A model generated the notes under the pieces. The model was not told where the DNA came from. It saw only the letters and a program-made list of their open reading frames with translations, and made no database searches. Of a stretch of 49,868 nucleotides of DNA, positions 22,484 through 29,496 are shown piece by piece (positions within the stretch are counted from its first letter, which is position 1; each line of letters begins with the position of its first letter). The DNA is from an uncultured Puniceicoccaceae bacterium. GTDB lineage: Bacteria > Verrucomicrobiota > Verrucomicrobiia > Opitutales > Coraliomargaritaceae. The stretch is from assembly GCA_913044165.1 (NCBI GenBank), contig CAJWMY010000005.1:1-49868 (forward strand), written 5' to 3'. The translations under genes were made by a program, and so were the position numbers.

Positions 22484-22512
22484 TTTTCATTGCGTCTTGG
22501 TTAAATTATAAT
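22484..22512 (+). promoter_or_regulatory. putative promoter of the pilus-like operon
   Basis: A perfect TATAAT (22507-22512) lies 17 bases after TTTTCA (22484-22489), which matches four of six positions of the -35 consensus. Transcription would begin about 105 bases before the first ATG at 22623. The rest of this 231-base gap between the Nudix gene and the operon is AT-rich. I see no other structured element or small gene in it. Confidence 0.4.
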
Positions 22513-22622: not shown

Positions 22623-23201
22623 ATGCCATTAACCCGTATATTAGTTCTAATAAGTATTTTTTTAGCTTATTCATCAGTATCGATAGCACAATTAGTTTCT
22701 GTACAACAAGTAAAATTTACATTTCTTAAAAATAATTGGTTTGTCGGAGAAATTCAGATTCTTACAGATCGCAATACAGATCCCCAGGCAATTTCAGATA
22801 AGTTTGTTGAGAATGTTAACATTAGGCTTTATCTGGGCTTTCAAAATGATAATTTAGCTGAAAATATAGATTACTATGTAGCCCAATCAGATATTATGAT
22901 TTTAGAGCAAGGAGACAAAAATACAGTACGCTTTTTTATTCCTGATAAAATTATAAAGATGCATCGTTATAGAATGCCACAATTTTATTACGCTGAAGTT
23001 GTGGTTAATAAAAAAGTTCAAAAATTAAATTCTCGGGCATTTAGCTCAAATATTAATAGCAAGCAAAATTTAGATGTTTTTATGCAAAAAGCGCGCCAAG
23101 GTATGAAAAGAAATCTAGGTAGACTTATGCCAAGTTACCATGCTCCCAATAATATTCAAGGTAGTGATCCTGGCGCCCCAATCTATTTTAATAGCCTTTA
23201 A
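22623..23201 (+). CDS. Amuc_1102-family pilus-like periplasmic protein
   Basis: The 192-residue product has a cleavable signal peptide (to about residue 22, ending SVSIA) and then a compact beta-rich domain beginning LVSVQQVKFTFLKNNWFVGEIQIL, followed by a stretch with VNIRLYLGFQN and MPQFYYAEVVV. The sequence style, length and especially the gene order match Amuc_1102 of Akkermansia muciniphila, the first gene of its pilus-like cluster. The exact role is unknown, and I infer an accessory periplasmic part of the secretin complex. It is the first gene of a five-gene operon and is 21 bases before the PilM-like gene. Confidence 0.78.
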   Translation: MPLTRILVLISIFLAYSSVSIAQLVSVQQVKFTFLKNNWFVGEIQILTDRNTDPQAISDKFVENVNIRLYLGFQNDNLAENIDYYVAQSDIMILEQGDKNTVRFFIPDKIIKMHRYRMPQFYYAEVVVNKKVQKLNSRAFSSNINSKQNLDVFMQKARQGMKRNLGRLMPSYHAPNNIQGSDPGAPIYFNSL

Positions 23202-23222
23202 TTTAAAAAAATTAATTTACAG

Positions 23223-24959
23223 ATGAGCCAAGAACAAAATAGATTAATTATAAACTGCGGATCCAGTCATGTATCGGCTACTATGGTTTCTCATAAAGCT
23301 AGTGAATTGAAAATCGAAAAATCATTATCAATTCCTTTAGAGTATGATTTTCAGAATGAAGATGCTTGGATAGATGCAGTATCTGATGGTATAAGAGACG
23401 TCGTACGGGAAGGGAAATTAAGTGGCAATGCTCACTTTATTATTCCCGGCAATCAGGTTTTAACTAAAACATTACACATCCCAAGTGTTGAAAAAGCTAA
23501 ACAACCACAAGTTATAGCATTTGAGGCACAGCAAAACCTACCTTACGATCTAGATGAAGTGGTTTGGGATAGCCAAATATTGAACGATGATGGCATGGAA
23601 ACCGATATACTTTTGGGGGCTTGTAAGAATGAAACAATCAATGAGTTTTGTGGGGCAATCCAGAAAACAGGGTTAGTCATAGAATCTATTAACACATCTT
23701 CCGTACTTACATATGCTGCATTAGAATATTCAGAGCCTGATTTAGAAGAAGATGTTCTTTTAATTAATGTAGGCGCACGTTCCTCAACGCTTTTGTTTAA
23801 AAGCGAAGAAGGATTTTTTGTACGGACTATTAATCTCGGTGGTAATACTCTAACCCAATTTATTTCAGACACTTTAGGGAAAGATTTTGTGGAATCAGAT
23901 GATATTAAAAATCGATTTTTTGTTGAAGAAGATTCGTTAGAAGAGGAAAGCTCAGCAGTAAAATTAATGCAAACAAGTATCGCTAATTTTTCTCGTCGAT
24001 TTGCGCAAGAAATCACTAGATCTATTGTGATGTACCAGAGAAAAAAAGGGGGTGATTCTATTAAGCGCATCTTCATTACCGGCAAAGGTTCAAGTTCTCC
24101 AATGGTCCGAGAAAAATTAGCTAATGCTCTAGACCATAAGATAGAATTATTTAATGCCTTAAGTGGGGTTGATTTAGCGCCGGAGCTAGATCTTGATAGG
24201 GATACTTTAAGTTTCGAGCTTAGTGAAGTTGTTGGCGAAGCAATAAAAGAATTTAAATTAACTGAAAACTATGGAAATTTAAATCTATTGCCCATAAGTA
24301 TAAGACAAGAACTTAGATTTGTTAGGCAGAAGCCATTTTTGGCAGTTGCGGCTTTTATTATTTGTATTTTCCCATGGCTAATTTTTTCTGGCATTTCAAA
24401 AGAATCTCAACTAAATCAGGATTATGACACTGAATTAAAGCAGGATCTGGCCCCTTTAAAAAGTAATAAAATATTGTTATCAGAAAATAAATTGAAGGCT
24501 CAGATTTTAAGCGAATCAATTAGTCAAGTAGAGGGTCTAGTTAATACAAAAACAAATTGGATTCAGTTTTTTGCTGATTTGCAAAACAGCATATATAATG
24601 CTAGGGATGTTTGGATTGATGACCTTACTGTAATTCGACCAGAAGTCTATATAGATGAATATGACGACGAGTATGGAGATGATTATGGCTACTCTGACAA
24701 TGAAGGTTTAATGAACAATAAAGACTCTCTTGATTACGAAGTCATCTTAAAAGGGAAGATGCTTGTTCGTGAACCATCAAATTCAATAAATCAAGATGTT
24801 TTAGCCAATCGAATTAAACAATTACAAGCAAGTTTTGAAGATTCAAATTTTGTTGTTGCATCTAAGCCGCCTAAGATTTCATGGAAGTATTTAACTGACG
24901 GGCTCAAAGTGCTGCCATTTGAAATCAATCTCATTATTGATACAGAGAAACCTTTATAA
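23223..24959 (+). CDS. Amuc_1101-family PilM-like ATPase fused to PilN-like domain
   Basis: Residues 1-345 form a PilM-type actin-like ATPase. Visible parts are the first phosphate loop (NCGSSHVSA, 11-19), the inner helix region KQPQVIAFEAQQNLPYDLDE, the second phosphate loop (INVGARSSTLLF, 181-192) and the adenosine loop (FITGKGSSSPMV, 284-295). The PilN hallmark NLLP is at 354-357, followed by a single membrane helix (about 371-391) and a periplasmic domain. The fusion of PilM and PilN functions in one chain is the Amuc_1101 arrangement. A very acidic segment (D/E/Y-rich, about 477-494) lies in the periplasmic part. I infer the inner-membrane platform of the complex. Confidence 0.85.
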   Translation: MSQEQNRLIINCGSSHVSATMVSHKASELKIEKSLSIPLEYDFQNEDAWIDAVSDGIRDVVREGKLSGNAHFIIPGNQVLTKTLHIPSVEKAKQPQVIAFEAQQNLPYDLDEVVWDSQILNDDGMETDILLGACKNETINEFCGAIQKTGLVIESINTSSVLTYAALEYSEPDLEEDVLLINVGARSSTLLFKSEEGFFVRTINLGGNTLTQFISDTLGKDFVESDDIKNRFFVEEDSLEEESSAVKLMQTSIANFSRRFAQEITRSIVMYQRKKGGDSIKRIFITGKGSSSPMVREKLANALDHKIELFNALSGVDLAPELDLDRDTLSFELSEVVGEAIKEFKLTENYGNLNLLPISIRQELRFVRQKPFLAVAAFIICIFPWLIFSGISKESQLNQDYDTELKQDLAPLKSNKILLSENKLKAQILSESISQVEGLVNTKTNWIQFFADLQNSIYNARDVWIDDLTVIRPEVYIDEYDDEYGDDYGYSDNEGLMNNKDSLDYEVILKGKMLVREPSNSINQDVLANRIKQLQASFEDSNFVVASKPPKISWKYLTDGLKVLPFEINLIIDTEKPL

Positions 24960-24970
24960 TTTTAAGTGCT

Positions 24971-25930
24971 ATGGAATTTTTTAAAAAACACCCACTCTTT
25001 TTAACTAGTATATTGAGCTTTGCACTAGTTTTTCTTATTGGATTAGTATTTACCATTTTATCTTTTATTGACTTAATTAAGGTTAATAATGATGTTGATA
25101 AAACAGAAAAAAATTTCTTGCAAATCATTGAGGGAACTCCCTCTTACACTTCAGAAAATGTCGTAGCATCAGATTTAAATGTTCTAGCATTAACAGAGAA
25201 ACTAGAGGCTATGCGCTCTGAATTAGAGAGAGGAGCAGAAGCCCAAGCTTCAATAGATGGGGTTAATGTGACTGCAGGGATACAGCAATATATTTCTAAG
25301 TTTAAGAGATTAGCAGGATCAAAAGCAGATGATGATGGATCTCCTATTATAGAAATTCCGGATGGGTTCGCTTTTGGATTTGATCGTTTTAGTTTGGAAA
25401 CAAAAGTCCCTGAAAGCCCAGAAGAAATCTTATTATTAGATAAACAGAGAGATATTTTAGATTTTTTAATGACAGAGTTATTTGATACCAATCCCAAGGG
25501 AATTTTAGAGGTGAAGCGTGAATCAGCGAAATATATATCAGATACAGAAGGAGAGGAATATTCCAGTGATCCATCTATATTTAAAATAAGTTCATCTGTA
25601 ACTTCACGAGTAGAGGGGGCAATAAAAACAATTCCATTCCAAATTTCTTTTTCTGGTAAAACTAATTCTTTAAGAGAATATCTTAATCGTTTAGCTAATT
25701 TCGATCGGCCAATTGTTGTTCGAAGTATAAATGTTTCCCGTCCTAATGAAAGCGTTAAAACAAAATTCAAGGATCAGAGAAATGATAAGATTGCTGCTAT
25801 ATTTGGTGATAAAGTTAAAGATATTAATAAAGACCAAAGGAAAGATCCTGTGGTAACAGAGAATGTTTCAGAATTTACGCTTACACTTGAATATATTGAA
25901 ATTGTTTTACAAGAGGAGGAGAGTTTGTAG
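24971..25930 (+). CDS. Amuc_1100-family PilO-like pilus protein
   Basis: The 319-residue protein has one N-terminal membrane helix (about residues 10-33) and a periplasmic region with a coiled-coil start (TEKLEAMRSELERGAEA) and two ferredoxin-like alpha/beta halves (FRFSL... and VEGAIKTIPFQISFSGKTNSL; RPIVVRSINVSRP). It ends with a strand EFTLTLEYIEIVL. Length, topology and position between the PilM-N fusion and the Amuc_1099-like gene match Amuc_1100 (about 317 residues), known from Akkermansia as an abundant envelope protein that signals to human TLR2. Here the likely role is structural, as the PilO-like inner-membrane partner of PilN. Confidence 0.84.
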   Translation: MEFFKKHPLFLTSILSFALVFLIGLVFTILSFIDLIKVNNDVDKTEKNFLQIIEGTPSYTSENVVASDLNVLALTEKLEAMRSELERGAEAQASIDGVNVTAGIQQYISKFKRLAGSKADDDGSPIIEIPDGFAFGFDRFSLETKVPESPEEILLLDKQRDILDFLMTELFDTNPKGILEVKRESAKYISDTEGEEYSSDPSIFKISSSVTSRVEGAIKTIPFQISFSGKTNSLREYLNRLANFDRPIVVRSINVSRPNESVKTKFKDQRNDKIAAIFGDKVKDINKDQRKDPVVTENVSEFTLTLEYIEIVLQEEESL

Positions 25931-25976
25931 AGATAATTTAATTTATAATATGTCGAATAGTTCCATTTAAGTAATA

Positions 25977-26849
25977 ATGAAAAACTTTAATATAAAAGTA
26001 ACAATAGCAATTTCAGGAGGACTTCTAGTCTTTGGATTATTATTTTATTTTATCTTTCCATCTGAAAAGATAGTCATCTCTAAAAGCTCAATGCTTACTA
26101 AAAAGTTCAATCCTATTATATTGCCCCAATCTGCAGTAAATGAAGTAGATTGGCCTGAGGCTATGGAACAAGCAAAAGGTGAATTATATGATTTATTTAC
26201 GCCTCCTGAAATTTATCTAAATGCTCTCGGAGAGTTTGTTTTCCGAACTCCCTATTTTATTTCCTCTGACGATCCTTTTGGCATTGAGTTAGTTGAAATA
26301 AATAGAAACCCTTACCGTTTTCAATTAGACGGATTTATTGAAGAAGATCGCAGTGATGACAGCCAGACAGTAATTCTTATTCACAGCGTTGAAGACGGAA
26401 AGAGTTTACGATTAAGTCCAAATGCATCGAATTCGAAATACCAAATTAAGTTACTAGATTGGTCAGTAAGAACTATAAATGAGAGAGATGGAAATATGAG
26501 GGTTGTTGCAAATCTGAAGTTGCAGGATTATAAGTTAGATCGAATAGTAAATCTTCGGCATGACAAAAAATTATTTGAAGAAAAAATCTCAGTTGTACTA
26601 GCTGTAGAAGAAAGTGCTGAGCAATATATTTTAGAAGGCGAGAATTCTAGTTTTTTTATTGGGGATATTGAATATCGACTAGATGCTATTGATTCCGAAA
26701 ATCAAACTGTTTTAGTGACTAAATTAATTCCTGACAATGATCCCATTTCTGAATTATTAGAAATTGAAGCAATAGTTGATAATTCTAAAATAGAAACTGA
26801 CGACTCGGGTAACCTTGATTTTGAGGACGCATTTGATTCGTTCTTCTAA
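25977..26849 (+). CDS. Amuc_1099-family pilus-like system protein
   Basis: The 290-residue product has one N-terminal membrane helix (about 8-28, IAISGGLLVFGLLFYFIF) and a periplasmic domain that contains two similar beta-rich parts (PYRFQLDGFIEE...VILIHSVEDGKSLRL and GDIEYRLDAIDSENQTVLVTKL). The motif LYDLFTPPEIYLN...FRTPYF is prominent before the first part. By position (between the PilO-like gene and the secretin gene) and topology it corresponds to Amuc_1099. A PilP-like bridge between the inner-membrane platform and the secretin is a reasonable inference. Gene spacing is 46 bases upstream and 65 downstream. Confidence 0.78.
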   Translation: MKNFNIKVTIAISGGLLVFGLLFYFIFPSEKIVISKSSMLTKKFNPIILPQSAVNEVDWPEAMEQAKGELYDLFTPPEIYLNALGEFVFRTPYFISSDDPFGIELVEINRNPYRFQLDGFIEEDRSDDSQTVILIHSVEDGKSLRLSPNASNSKYQIKLLDWSVRTINERDGNMRVVANLKLQDYKLDRIVNLRHDKKLFEEKISVVLAVEESAEQYILEGENSSFFIGDIEYRLDAIDSENQTVLVTKLIPDNDPISELLEIEAIVDNSKIETDDSGNLDFEDAFDSFF

Positions 26850-26914
26850 GCTTAATTTTTAAAAACAAACACATTAGATAATTTTAATTTGCTCAAATAA
26901 AAGGAAAACAAAAT

Positions 26915-29461
26915 ATGAAAAAATCGCCTGCTTATAAAATCCATTGTATAGCACTATTATTTGCTATGCCTTTGGTTCTAGCCCTATCAACTCCATCGGT
27001 ATTCGCACAAGAATCTAATACCTCGGAAAAGATACAACTTATGTCGGAAGCACTTCGTGCTCGTGATTCTGGAGATTTGCTACTAGCTCGTCAAAAAACG
27101 GAAGCTTTAATTGCACTAGCTCCTAGTGATCCTAATGTCCAATCTCTCCTTCTTTCAATAAATGAAAGCCTTGAGAAAGAAGGTATTACAGTGCCTAACA
27201 TCTCAAACCCCCAAATAAACAATAAAGAAAATTTAGGTACAGAAAAAAAATTTACTGAAACCCGTGGGCAAAGTGTGTCAATGAAACAGAAGGTTTTGGA
27301 TTTAGTTAGATTAAATAAGTTTCTTCCTGGGAAAGAGGGTTCTCCAGAATTCATTGAACAATCTAAAATTATTAAAAATCTTCTTGGATTCTGCCGTTTC
27401 CAAATAGCTTCTGATGATTATATCGGGGCTCTAAATACATTAAATGAAATAGAGGCGCGTGATCCTAATAATACAGAAGCAAAAGCTTTATCGCTTAAAT
27501 TATCGAAAATCCTTGGTGATATTCAAAGTGTAAATTTGTATAAAACGAGAGAGGATATGTTAAACGCAGTAGACGATAATTGGGAAAGACCTAAGGTATT
27601 TAAGCTAGAAAATAAAGTACAGGCAAGTGAAGCAGAAATACCTAGGCTTGTTCGAAAACTGGATAGTATTATTTTACCCAGGATTAATTTTAATGGAATG
27701 GAGCTGTCTAGAGTGGTTGAAACACTTTCTGAATTATCTGTTGAATATGACAAAGATGGAGAGGGAGTTAATATCGTTGTATTATTTAATCCAACAGAAT
27801 TAGATCCAGAAATTAATATTACATTAAGAAATTTGAGCCTTAATAAGATATTGAAATACGTGACTCAGCAGGTAAATTTCACGTATGATATCGGTGATGA
27901 AGTTGTGACTATTCAGCCTAGTGATTCAATTGGTGGTACTGCTTCAACAATTACAGAATTTTTTCCTATTACACGAGCAGCAATAATTCGTCTTACTGGA
28001 TTTAGGGAAGAGGCGTCTTCTTCAGCTATTACAGATCCATTTGCTGATATGGGTTCTAGTTCTTCTGGGCCAAGTCAGGACGAAGAAACGGAAGCCCTCA
28101 AAAAATTCTTTCAAAAGGCGGGCGTTAATTTCGAGGGTGTTACAGGATCGAGTTTAGCCTTCGATGGGAAACAACTTATAGTTACTCAGACTCCCCCCAA
28201 TATCGAGCGACTACGTACTATTCTAGGGAATTATAGTAAAGTTAAACAAGTTGAAATAGAGGCTAAGTTTATAGAGGTTGCCCAGAATGACCTCGATGAA
28301 CTTGGATTTAATTGGGGTATTATGAATGTAAATGATAATACTACTAACAGATATAATATTATTAATGATCCAATTGCTGCGAATCAGTATACTTCATATA
28401 CGGATGCAAACGGAAATTTAGTTCAAAAACAGGTTTTGCCATATAATCCAGCAGTGGGAGTAAATAGCACTGGGGCAGCTAGTAATGCTGCTTTAACGGG
28501 TCAATTAGGGGCGTCTATCTTTCAAGATAGAGGATTGCCTGCTACAGCAAAAACTCAGTTTAGAGGTTTAGGAGATATTGAGCCCAATAGTGGGGCTTCA
28601 AAAGAAGCTATTGTTGGGGGATCAACTGTTTCTATAGCGCCACCAGAGATAAGTGGAGCACTTGATTTTGCCGAAAATATCCTACCATTTTTTACTGATA
28701 CATTTACAGATGGAGATTATTCTATAGACCTTCAGCTAAATGCTATTGCACGTAAAACTGGATCAGACTTAATGAGTGCTCCAAAAGTAACAGTCCTTTC
28801 AGGCAAGCGCGCTGAGATTGTCGTTGCTCAAGAGTTGCGTTATCCTGAATCCTATGGAGATATTCAGTCGACAGTCTCATCTGGGGGAGATGTGCTGTCT
28901 GGGGGAAGTTCTGCAATTTCTATAACAGCAGGTACGCCTCAAGATTTCCAAATGCGTCGTGTTGGTGTGGAGATGGCGGTTACTCCAAATGTTGAAAGTG
29001 ACGATAGTATTAGTTTGAAACTTGAGCCTAAAGTAACAGAGTTTGAAGGCTTTGTTGAATACGGTGGACCGAGTATTGCACTTACTGGGAATCAAACTGC
29101 AGTAGTTCCTGCAGGTTTTTATCAACCTGTTTTTTCAACTCGTGAAATCAAAACGGAAGTAACTATCTTAGATGGTGCTACAGTAGTAATGGGGGGGTTG
29201 ACTAGGGATGAAGTTCGTTCAATTGATGATCGTGTACCCTTCCTTGGAGATATTCCGGTCATTGGTAGACTTTTTAGATCAGAGGGCGAGACGAGGCAAA
29301 AACGCAATCTCTTAATCTTTGTGACAGCAAATTTAGTTAGTCCAGGGGGAACTTTATCCAATCAATCTTATAATAATATTAAGTCTAAAACATTATACCA
29401 AGCACCAACAATAACGACTCCATCGGGAAATCGTTATAGGAATGTGACTATAAAAGATTAA
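26915..29461 (+). CDS. Amuc_1098-family secretin, outer-membrane pilus-like channel
   Basis: This is an outer-membrane secretin of 848 residues. It has a signal peptide of about 31 residues, a TPR-like helical stretch (50-190), a secretin N0-type domain (about 250-335, RINFNGMELSRVVETLSEL ... TYDIGDEVVTIQPSD), an N1 domain with GKQLIVTQTPPNIERL, and the secretin core from about 600 (LMSAPKVTVLSGKRAEIVV; MAVTPNV; GATVVMGGLTRDEV; VPFLGDIPVIGRLF). Length and layout match Amuc_1098. An A/G-rich ribosome site (AAAAGGAAAA) precedes the ATG. An intrinsic terminator starts 7 bases after the stop codon. Confidence 0.9.
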   Translation: MKKSPAYKIHCIALLFAMPLVLALSTPSVFAQESNTSEKIQLMSEALRARDSGDLLLARQKTEALIALAPSDPNVQSLLLSINESLEKEGITVPNISNPQINNKENLGTEKKFTETRGQSVSMKQKVLDLVRLNKFLPGKEGSPEFIEQSKIIKNLLGFCRFQIASDDYIGALNTLNEIEARDPNNTEAKALSLKLSKILGDIQSVNLYKTREDMLNAVDDNWERPKVFKLENKVQASEAEIPRLVRKLDSIILPRINFNGMELSRVVETLSELSVEYDKDGEGVNIVVLFNPTELDPEINITLRNLSLNKILKYVTQQVNFTYDIGDEVVTIQPSDSIGGTASTITEFFPITRAAIIRLTGFREEASSSAITDPFADMGSSSSGPSQDEETEALKKFFQKAGVNFEGVTGSSLAFDGKQLIVTQTPPNIERLRTILGNYSKVKQVEIEAKFIEVAQNDLDELGFNWGIMNVNDNTTNRYNIINDPIAANQYTSYTDANGNLVQKQVLPYNPAVGVNSTGAASNAALTGQLGASIFQDRGLPATAKTQFRGLGDIEPNSGASKEAIVGGSTVSIAPPEISGALDFAENILPFFTDTFTDGDYSIDLQLNAIARKTGSDLMSAPKVTVLSGKRAEIVVAQELRYPESYGDIQSTVSSGGDVLSGGSSAISITAGTPQDFQMRRVGVEMAVTPNVESDDSISLKLEPKVTEFEGFVEYGGPSIALTGNQTAVVPAGFYQPVFSTREIKTEVTILDGATVVMGGLTRDEVRSIDDRVPFLGDIPVIGRLFRSEGETRQKRNLLIFVTANLVSPGGTLSNQSYNNIKSKTLYQAPTITTPSGNRYRNVTIKD

Positions 29462-29467
29462 TTTACT

Positions 29468-29496
29468 AAAGCCCATTTATTTTAATGGGCTTTTTT
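29468..29496 (+). terminator. intrinsic terminator of the pilus-like operon
   Basis: AAAGCCCATT (29468-29477) pairs perfectly with AATGGGCTTT (29484-29493) across a 6-base loop. The T-run extends three bases beyond the arm. It lies 7 bases after the secretin stop. This is the clearest rho-independent terminator in the window. Confidence 0.92.

Follow-up and report, generated by a model that had tools for sequence, protein, structure and literature searches.

An Amuc_1098–Amuc_1102-type operon of an uncultured Puniceicoccaceae bacterium as the probable static base of a type IVa-type pilus

Results

Five co-directional genes between NUDIX and recF

The window studied here is a stretch of 49,868 nucleotides from an uncultured Puniceicoccaceae bacterium (contig CAJWMY010000005.1 of assembly GCA_913044165.1), in which counterparts of Amuc_1102, Amuc_1101, Amuc_1100, Amuc_1099 and Amuc_1098 had been predicted, in that order, at positions 22623–29461. 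Five co-directional open reading frames (ORF1–ORF5) were indeed found on the forward strand of this interval, encoding proteins of 192, 578, 319, 290 and 848 amino acids separated by gaps of 21, 11, 46 and 65 bp, and the family and fold matches described below confirmed the order. The operon is flanked by NUDIX and recF genes, and in both a second genome of the genus (G205) and a genome of the sister genus (G001) the five genes are kept and adjoin the same NUDIX and recF genes, the G205 proteins being 46–63% identical to those of the window.

The strong terminator expected at the end of the operon proved to be real: an intrinsic terminator is located at 29468–29493 (forward strand) and consists of a 10-bp stem followed by a T run, with a folding energy of −13.9 kcal/mol and a z score of −4.2 against shuffles. 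At the other border, the promoter candidate (TTTTCA-17-TATAAT, 22484–22512, forward strand, 111 bases upstream of ORF1) does match the consensus at 10 of 12 positions but is weak, since a scan for promoter-type sites returned 23 against 28.5 expected in shuffled sequence, and such sites are not over-represented. As a separate observation, the operon of genome G116 is in two parts, with the PilM-N/PilO-like pair on contig C59 and the secretin on contig C46 (loci L163 and L189).

Identity of the five proteins

ORF1 (22623–23201, forward strand) encodes a secreted, 192-residue beta-sandwich protein resembling Amuc_1102 (MUL2A). A profile of its own family matched a set of Amuc_1102 proteins from the Verrucomicrobiales (Prob 85%, E 6e-6), and the best solved structure for the predicted ORF1 model was Amuc_1102 itself (7dsz, Z 15.6; next entry 9.1). 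Note that the alignment used to build this model consisted of Amuc_1102 relatives, for which reason the structural match is supportive and not independent. As predicted, the protein begins with an ordinary signal peptide, starting MPLTRILVLISIFLAYSSVSIAQ. The class III prepilin signal motif of type IV pilins was not found in ORF1 in an N_methyl search, and this result together with the ordinary signal sequence ruled out ORF1 as an N-methyl pilin; the absence of an archaeal pilin among the best 50 VIA-align matches for ORF1 proves nothing either way.

ORF2 (23223–24959, forward strand) encodes a 578-residue protein resembling Amuc_1101 (MUL2B; Amuc_1101_fam 4.7e-80), and the claim that it is a PilM-PilN fusion was borne out. 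Residues 11–323 match PilM_2 (3.7e-27), and the family profile matches PilM structures as well as the PilM,PilN entry 5eou. The PilN-like part, which has no Pfam match, begins with an NLLP motif (residues 354–357) and a membrane segment seen by hydropathy (residues about 373–391), together spanning 24282–24395 on the forward strand. An NLLP motif followed by one membrane segment is a hallmark of PilN, and ORF2 therefore carries the features of both PilM and PilN of a type IVa pilus.

ORF3 (24971–25930, forward strand) occupies the pilO position and encodes a 319-residue Amuc_1100-like protein (Amuc_1100_fam 5.7e-15; positional profile 91 bits) with a single N-terminal membrane segment. Its score against the Pfam PilO model was sub-threshold (14.5 bits against a threshold of 22 bits), and a PDB profile search with the Amuc_1100 set returned no PilO.

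ORF4 (25977–26849, forward strand) encodes a 290-residue Amuc_1099-like protein and fits the description of an anchored periplasmic protein, in that an N-terminal membrane anchor and a linker are followed by a PilP-like beta domain (residues about 99–268). The profile of its own family matched the Amuc_1099 set (Prob 96%, E 2e-9), while crossed control comparisons of the ORF1 and ORF4 families gave 0.7% and 0.2%. At the level of sequence, no PilP was found in a PDB profile search with the Amuc_1099 set, and neither the Amuc_1099 nor the Amuc_1102 set yielded a PilP or pilin model when scanned with Pfam; PDB sequence searches with ORF1, ORF3 and ORF4 individually likewise gave no useful result. 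The top two solved structures for the ORF4 model were both meningococcal PilP (2ivw, Z 7.8, and 4av2_M, Z 7.4, with Foldseek probabilities of 0.91 and 0.80), although a Z below 8 is by itself weak evidence. The next row scored 5.2, the match spans 73–74 residues of the small domain, and the gene lies where pilP sits in pilMNOPQ; on these grounds, the Amuc_1099-type ORF4 models as holding a PilP domain of the type IVa kind. Read in this way, the gene order becomes the standard pilM-N-O-P-Q. Other Amuc_1099-type proteins vary in the linker region: a TSP3 repeat of the bacterial, calcium-binding type lies between the anchor and the PilP-like domain in 25 of 47 of them, and is absent from ORF4 of the window. 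It was the one common Pfam match in these scans (alignment A3, columns about 150–230, e.g. L059:12504-13481 and L131:6650-7738).

ORF5 (26915–29461, forward strand) is the expected secretin. The 848-residue protein resembles Amuc_1098 (Amuc_1098_fam 4.7e-105) and is of the PilQ type, with a secretin domain at 28751–29338 (Secretin 2.6e-36); the genome encodes just one other secretin.

Membership of the Amuc_1098–Amuc_1102 family

A search with the NCBIfam models for Amuc_1098–Amuc_1102, as had been advised, was only partly sufficient. The best models for ORF2, ORF3 and ORF5 were Amuc_1101_fam, Amuc_1100_fam and Amuc_1098_fam, which ranked above the pilM, gspD and pilQ models, while ORF1 and ORF4 matched no NCBIfam model and were supported by the profile comparisons instead. 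All three scores fell well under the NCBI equivalog cut-offs (ORF2 270 of 650 bits, ORF3 55 of 180, ORF5 352 of 750), which makes these proteins diverged relatives and not equivalogs in the NCBI sense. In the broad sense, taken as gene order on one strand plus homology of each protein, the operon belongs to the Amuc_1098–Amuc_1102 (MUL2) family. An operon of this type therefore does occur outside Akkermansia, in a host of the same class and another order.

Across the phylum, 80 loci were collected together with an alignment of the PilM-N fusion protein, and the same five-gene order recurs among them. The reference locus L045 matches the Amuc_1102 and Amuc_1100 crystal entries and was on this basis taken as an Akkermansia-type locus. 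Of 289 genomes examined in the phylum, 260 gave an Amuc_1101 match at E<=1e-10, in line with the proposal that the family predates gut life; the loosest of these matches are not diagnostic, because E<=1e-10 is attained even by the ordinary PilM proteins of four control genomes. The operon and PilD are missing from families f8 and f10, as is PilT except for two weak hits in G008.

Motor genes and pilins elsewhere in the genome, and a peptidase in the congener

It had been claimed that pilin, PilB/PilT motor, PilC and prepilin peptidase are all missing from the machine in the window, and a genome-wide search had been suggested. The claim holds for the window. In the genome, an assembly (G000) of 1.26 Mb in 78 contigs that is 86.65% complete, the search did find PilB, PilC and pilins, and it did not find PilT or PilD. 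Contig C8 encodes PilB', PilB and PilC in a row after coaE-rho, and both ATPases carry the double CxxC typical of PilB/GspE. The C8 PilB and PilC score about equally against the GspE/GspF and the PilB/PilC models.

Six pilins with a class III signal were identified by the N_methyl search outside the type II secretion system (T2SS) cassette. Five are consecutive on contig C11 after alaS (L027 6716–10217); all five are kept in G205 and four in G001, and weak scores were obtained with this cassette against the GspG and GspH models and, for some of the five, against the Verru_Chthon cassette models. The sixth is a single pilin adjoining glyA on contig C3 (L025 5743–6453), with a C terminus of the form H-X9-DG and the same placement in G205 and G001, and is a candidate for the major pilin. 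Also on C3 is a gene of another kind (L026 12910–14091, 393 amino acids), whose product resembles, to the eye, the oxygenase domain of a bacterial nitric oxide synthase. No PilD was detected in the 86.65% complete assembly of the window's genome, but the peptidase is present in the congener G205 (97% complete), where it adjoins aroE, as well as in G001 and G146; its absence here is probably a matter of incompleteness, given its presence in G205 and the sister genus.

The genome also holds a separate T2SS cassette on contig C24, with its own secretin and L, M and C-like proteins. ATPases of the GspE type are encoded on two further contigs, C9 and C41, and C3 carries a GspF. The ATPases of C41 and C9 each form a pair with mutY (L022 209–3010 and L023 8842–11537); identity is 81% between the two ATPases and 56% between the MutY parts, and G205 shows one such ATPase. 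The two pairs are either paralogous, or one of them lies on a stray contig that belongs to a relative.

Genomic links between the base operon and the motor genes

In two loci from Verrucomicrobia (L068 and L126), the operon is followed immediately downstream by pilC, pilB and pilT, which face toward it. Their PilB and PilC are 52–54% and 45–46% identical to the C8 copies, compared with 22% for the other PilC/GspF protein. Loci L130 and L077 carry a PilT-family gene immediately upstream of the operon. Among the 45 loci whose sequence extends far enough beyond the secretin gene, the pair coaE-rho comes next after the operon in 23; in the genome of the window and in its relatives, this pair instead precedes pilB'-(pilT)-pilB-pilC. 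The simplest reading of these arrangements would be an ancestral joint cluster of base and motor, divided differently among the orders. Since the T2SS on C24 has a secretin and L, M and C-like proteins of its own, the C8 motor would be left without a base unless it works with this operon.

The two halves are not strictly coupled. Genome G108, for example, which is of the same family, carries the block coaE-rho-pilB'-pilT-pilB-pilC (L186), and neither PilM nor an Amuc_1098-type secretin was detected in it by the models used. A strict coupling of the operon to PilT was likewise considered and rejected, as PilT is present in genomes without the operon, among them G108, G010, G088, G143 and G284.

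It had been suggested that the five proteins may be a secretin complex rather than a classical pilus, that is, an envelope channel or secretion device that works without pilin or motor. The window itself, free of pilin, motor, PilC and PilD genes, could be taken this way, as could the placement of the motor genes on another contig of this assembly and the occurrence of motor block and base apart in G108. PilM and PilN parts, however, are not known to be used in the absence of a PilB/PilC motor. The genome does contain a motor, PilC and pilins, relatives keep pilC-pilB-pilT adjoining the operon, and ORF4 models as PilP, so that the suggestion finds no support and a stand-alone complex is very improbable. 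Of the outcomes that the original prediction had named as counting against it, a motor and pilin set was found to exist; a better match to the canonical models was not observed, as the Amuc models score higher.

Absence of pilT from the genus

PilT was found above cut-off in 40 of the 52 genomes sampled; among these 52, it was not found in G000 or G205, which are both genomes of the genus, nor in G116. PilT is a usual and not a universal part of type IVa systems. In G001 (L165) and G108 (L186), pilT lies between pilB' and pilB, whereas in the genus this spacing is 35 bp in G000 (L021 10734–10770, C8) and 27 bp in G205 (L164 7853–7881). The remaining C8 ATPases were considered as PilT and excluded, since both bear the PilB/GspE double CxxC. 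Gaps in the assemblies are an unlikely cause of the missing gene because the congener is 97% complete and the slot is empty in both genomes. As read from these genome sequences, the loss of pilT is specific and common to two species of the genus.

Retraction of type IVa pili is normally carried out by PilT (PMC9815625); motor-driven pulling is therefore not expected where PilT is lacking. It is quite possible, if a little short of probable, that an in-place deletion removed pilT from a pilB'-pilT-pilB-pilC block that otherwise stayed intact, with the Amuc-type base retained. A retractable pilus would then have given way either to an extend-only device, whose task of holding or capturing glycans or particles would not depend on motor-driven retraction, or to a system in which PilB' took over the role of PilT.

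The absence of PilT is also a trait of type II systems, and it could be that the base, PilB/PilC and the C11 pilins form a second type II-like secretion system that builds a short pseudopilus instead of a long pilus. The weak matches of the C11 pilins to GspG, GspH and Verru_Chthon models, and the nearly equal scores of PilB/PilC against GspE/GspF, would fit such a system. Note, however, that C24 already carries a complete T2SS cassette, that the operon has PilM and PilP-like parts, that relatives with the same operon carry an adjoining PilT, and that the Akkermansia proteins have been reported on type IV pili (PMC10688800). A pseudopilus is accordingly considered improbable.

Discussion

The interpretation favored here, and held to be very likely, is that the five genes supply the static part, or base, of a pilus of the type IVa kind whose moving parts are encoded elsewhere in the genome, with the role of the Amuc_1102-like protein left unsettled. 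The PilM-PilN fusion would sit at the inner membrane, the PilO-like and PilP-like proteins would form the periplasmic bridge, and the PilQ-type secretin would lie in the outer membrane. PilB, acting on PilC, would push pilins up via the PilM/N/O/P ring and out through the secretin, the pilins being supplied by the five-gene cassette on C11 and the single glyA-linked gene and processed, as the congener suggests, by a PilD encoded beside aroE. All of these parts are presumed to assemble into one pilus, which without PilT would extend and not be retracted by a motor. Set against a pilus are the lack of Pfam recognition of PilO and PilP, the absence of PilT from two genomes of the genus, and the absence of PilD from this assembly.

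Type IVa pilus bases with PilM–Q serve competence in many bacteria, and the entry 2ych, a relative of PilM, bears the name of a competence protein; the same pilus machine could in this case be used for DNA uptake rather than for attachment and glycan capture. Competence usually depends on PilT retraction, which is absent in the genus, and the reported phenotypes of Akkermansia MUL2 concern mucin (PMC12418764), so that a role in DNA uptake is judged unlikely.

The Akkermansia locus has been described as a type IV pilus cluster (PMC10688800). The Akkermansia MUL genes, this locus included, are reported to be needed to accumulate mucin products inside the cell (PMC12418764). A 2026 study found the locus in aquatic Akkermansiaceae and demonstrated uptake of labelled fucoidan, while terming amuc_1099 and amuc_1100 uncharacterized (PMC13174399). 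Based on the mucin data and the aquatic fucoidan study, the best guess for the pilus base described here, by analogy, is a role in attachment to particles and glycan capture, as has been proposed for the homologous MUL2 of Akkermansia.

Amuc_1100 has been studied as an immune-active protein, and the operon points to an envelope job for it, as the PilO-position part of a pilus base; this job would be common to most Verrucomicrobiota and older than gut life. With a PilP identity for Amuc_1099 and the neighborhood tie to PilB/PilC/PilT, MUL2 would no longer be an oddity resembling a pilus locus but a type IVa pilus that can be put to the test. In having lost pilT alone, the genus also offers a natural experiment on whether retraction of the pilus is required for glycan capture.

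The occurrence of the locus in aquatic Akkermansiaceae is already known (PMC13174399), and apparently new are the reading of the Amuc_1099 type as PilP, the tie of the operon to PilB/C/T through its genomic neighborhood and the in-place loss of pilT in the genus. The present operon shares with Amuc_1098–Amuc_1102/MUL2 of Akkermansia muciniphila its five genes, their order and direction and the types of parts, and the ORF1 fold fits the Amuc_1102 crystal structure. It differs in that ORF2 is 26% identical over 377 amino acids while ORF1, ORF3 and ORF4 could not be aligned by BLASTP, in its scores below the equivalog cut-offs, in the lack of PilT from the genus, and in its NUDIX/recF flanks, which stand in place of the coaE-rho of Verrucomicrobiales. 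With the loci of aquatic Akkermansiaceae (PMC13174399) it has in common a setting in Verrucomicrobiota that is presumably non-gut here as well and a predicted role in attachment and glycan uptake; those loci belong to Akkermansiaceae and other orders such as Verrucomicrobiales, whereas the present one represents a different order within the class, and in the present work amuc_1099 is identified with PilP and the place of the motor genes is established. Finally, the type IVa pilMNOPQ operons of, for example, Neisseria, Pseudomonas, Thermus and Myxococcus show the same M-N-O-P-Q order, PilM fold, NLLP motif, PilP-like domain and secretin. In the operon described here, by contrast, M and N are fused, O and P are not seen by Pfam, an Amuc_1102-like gene stands in front, the motor genes lie in another place, and PilT is missing from the genus.
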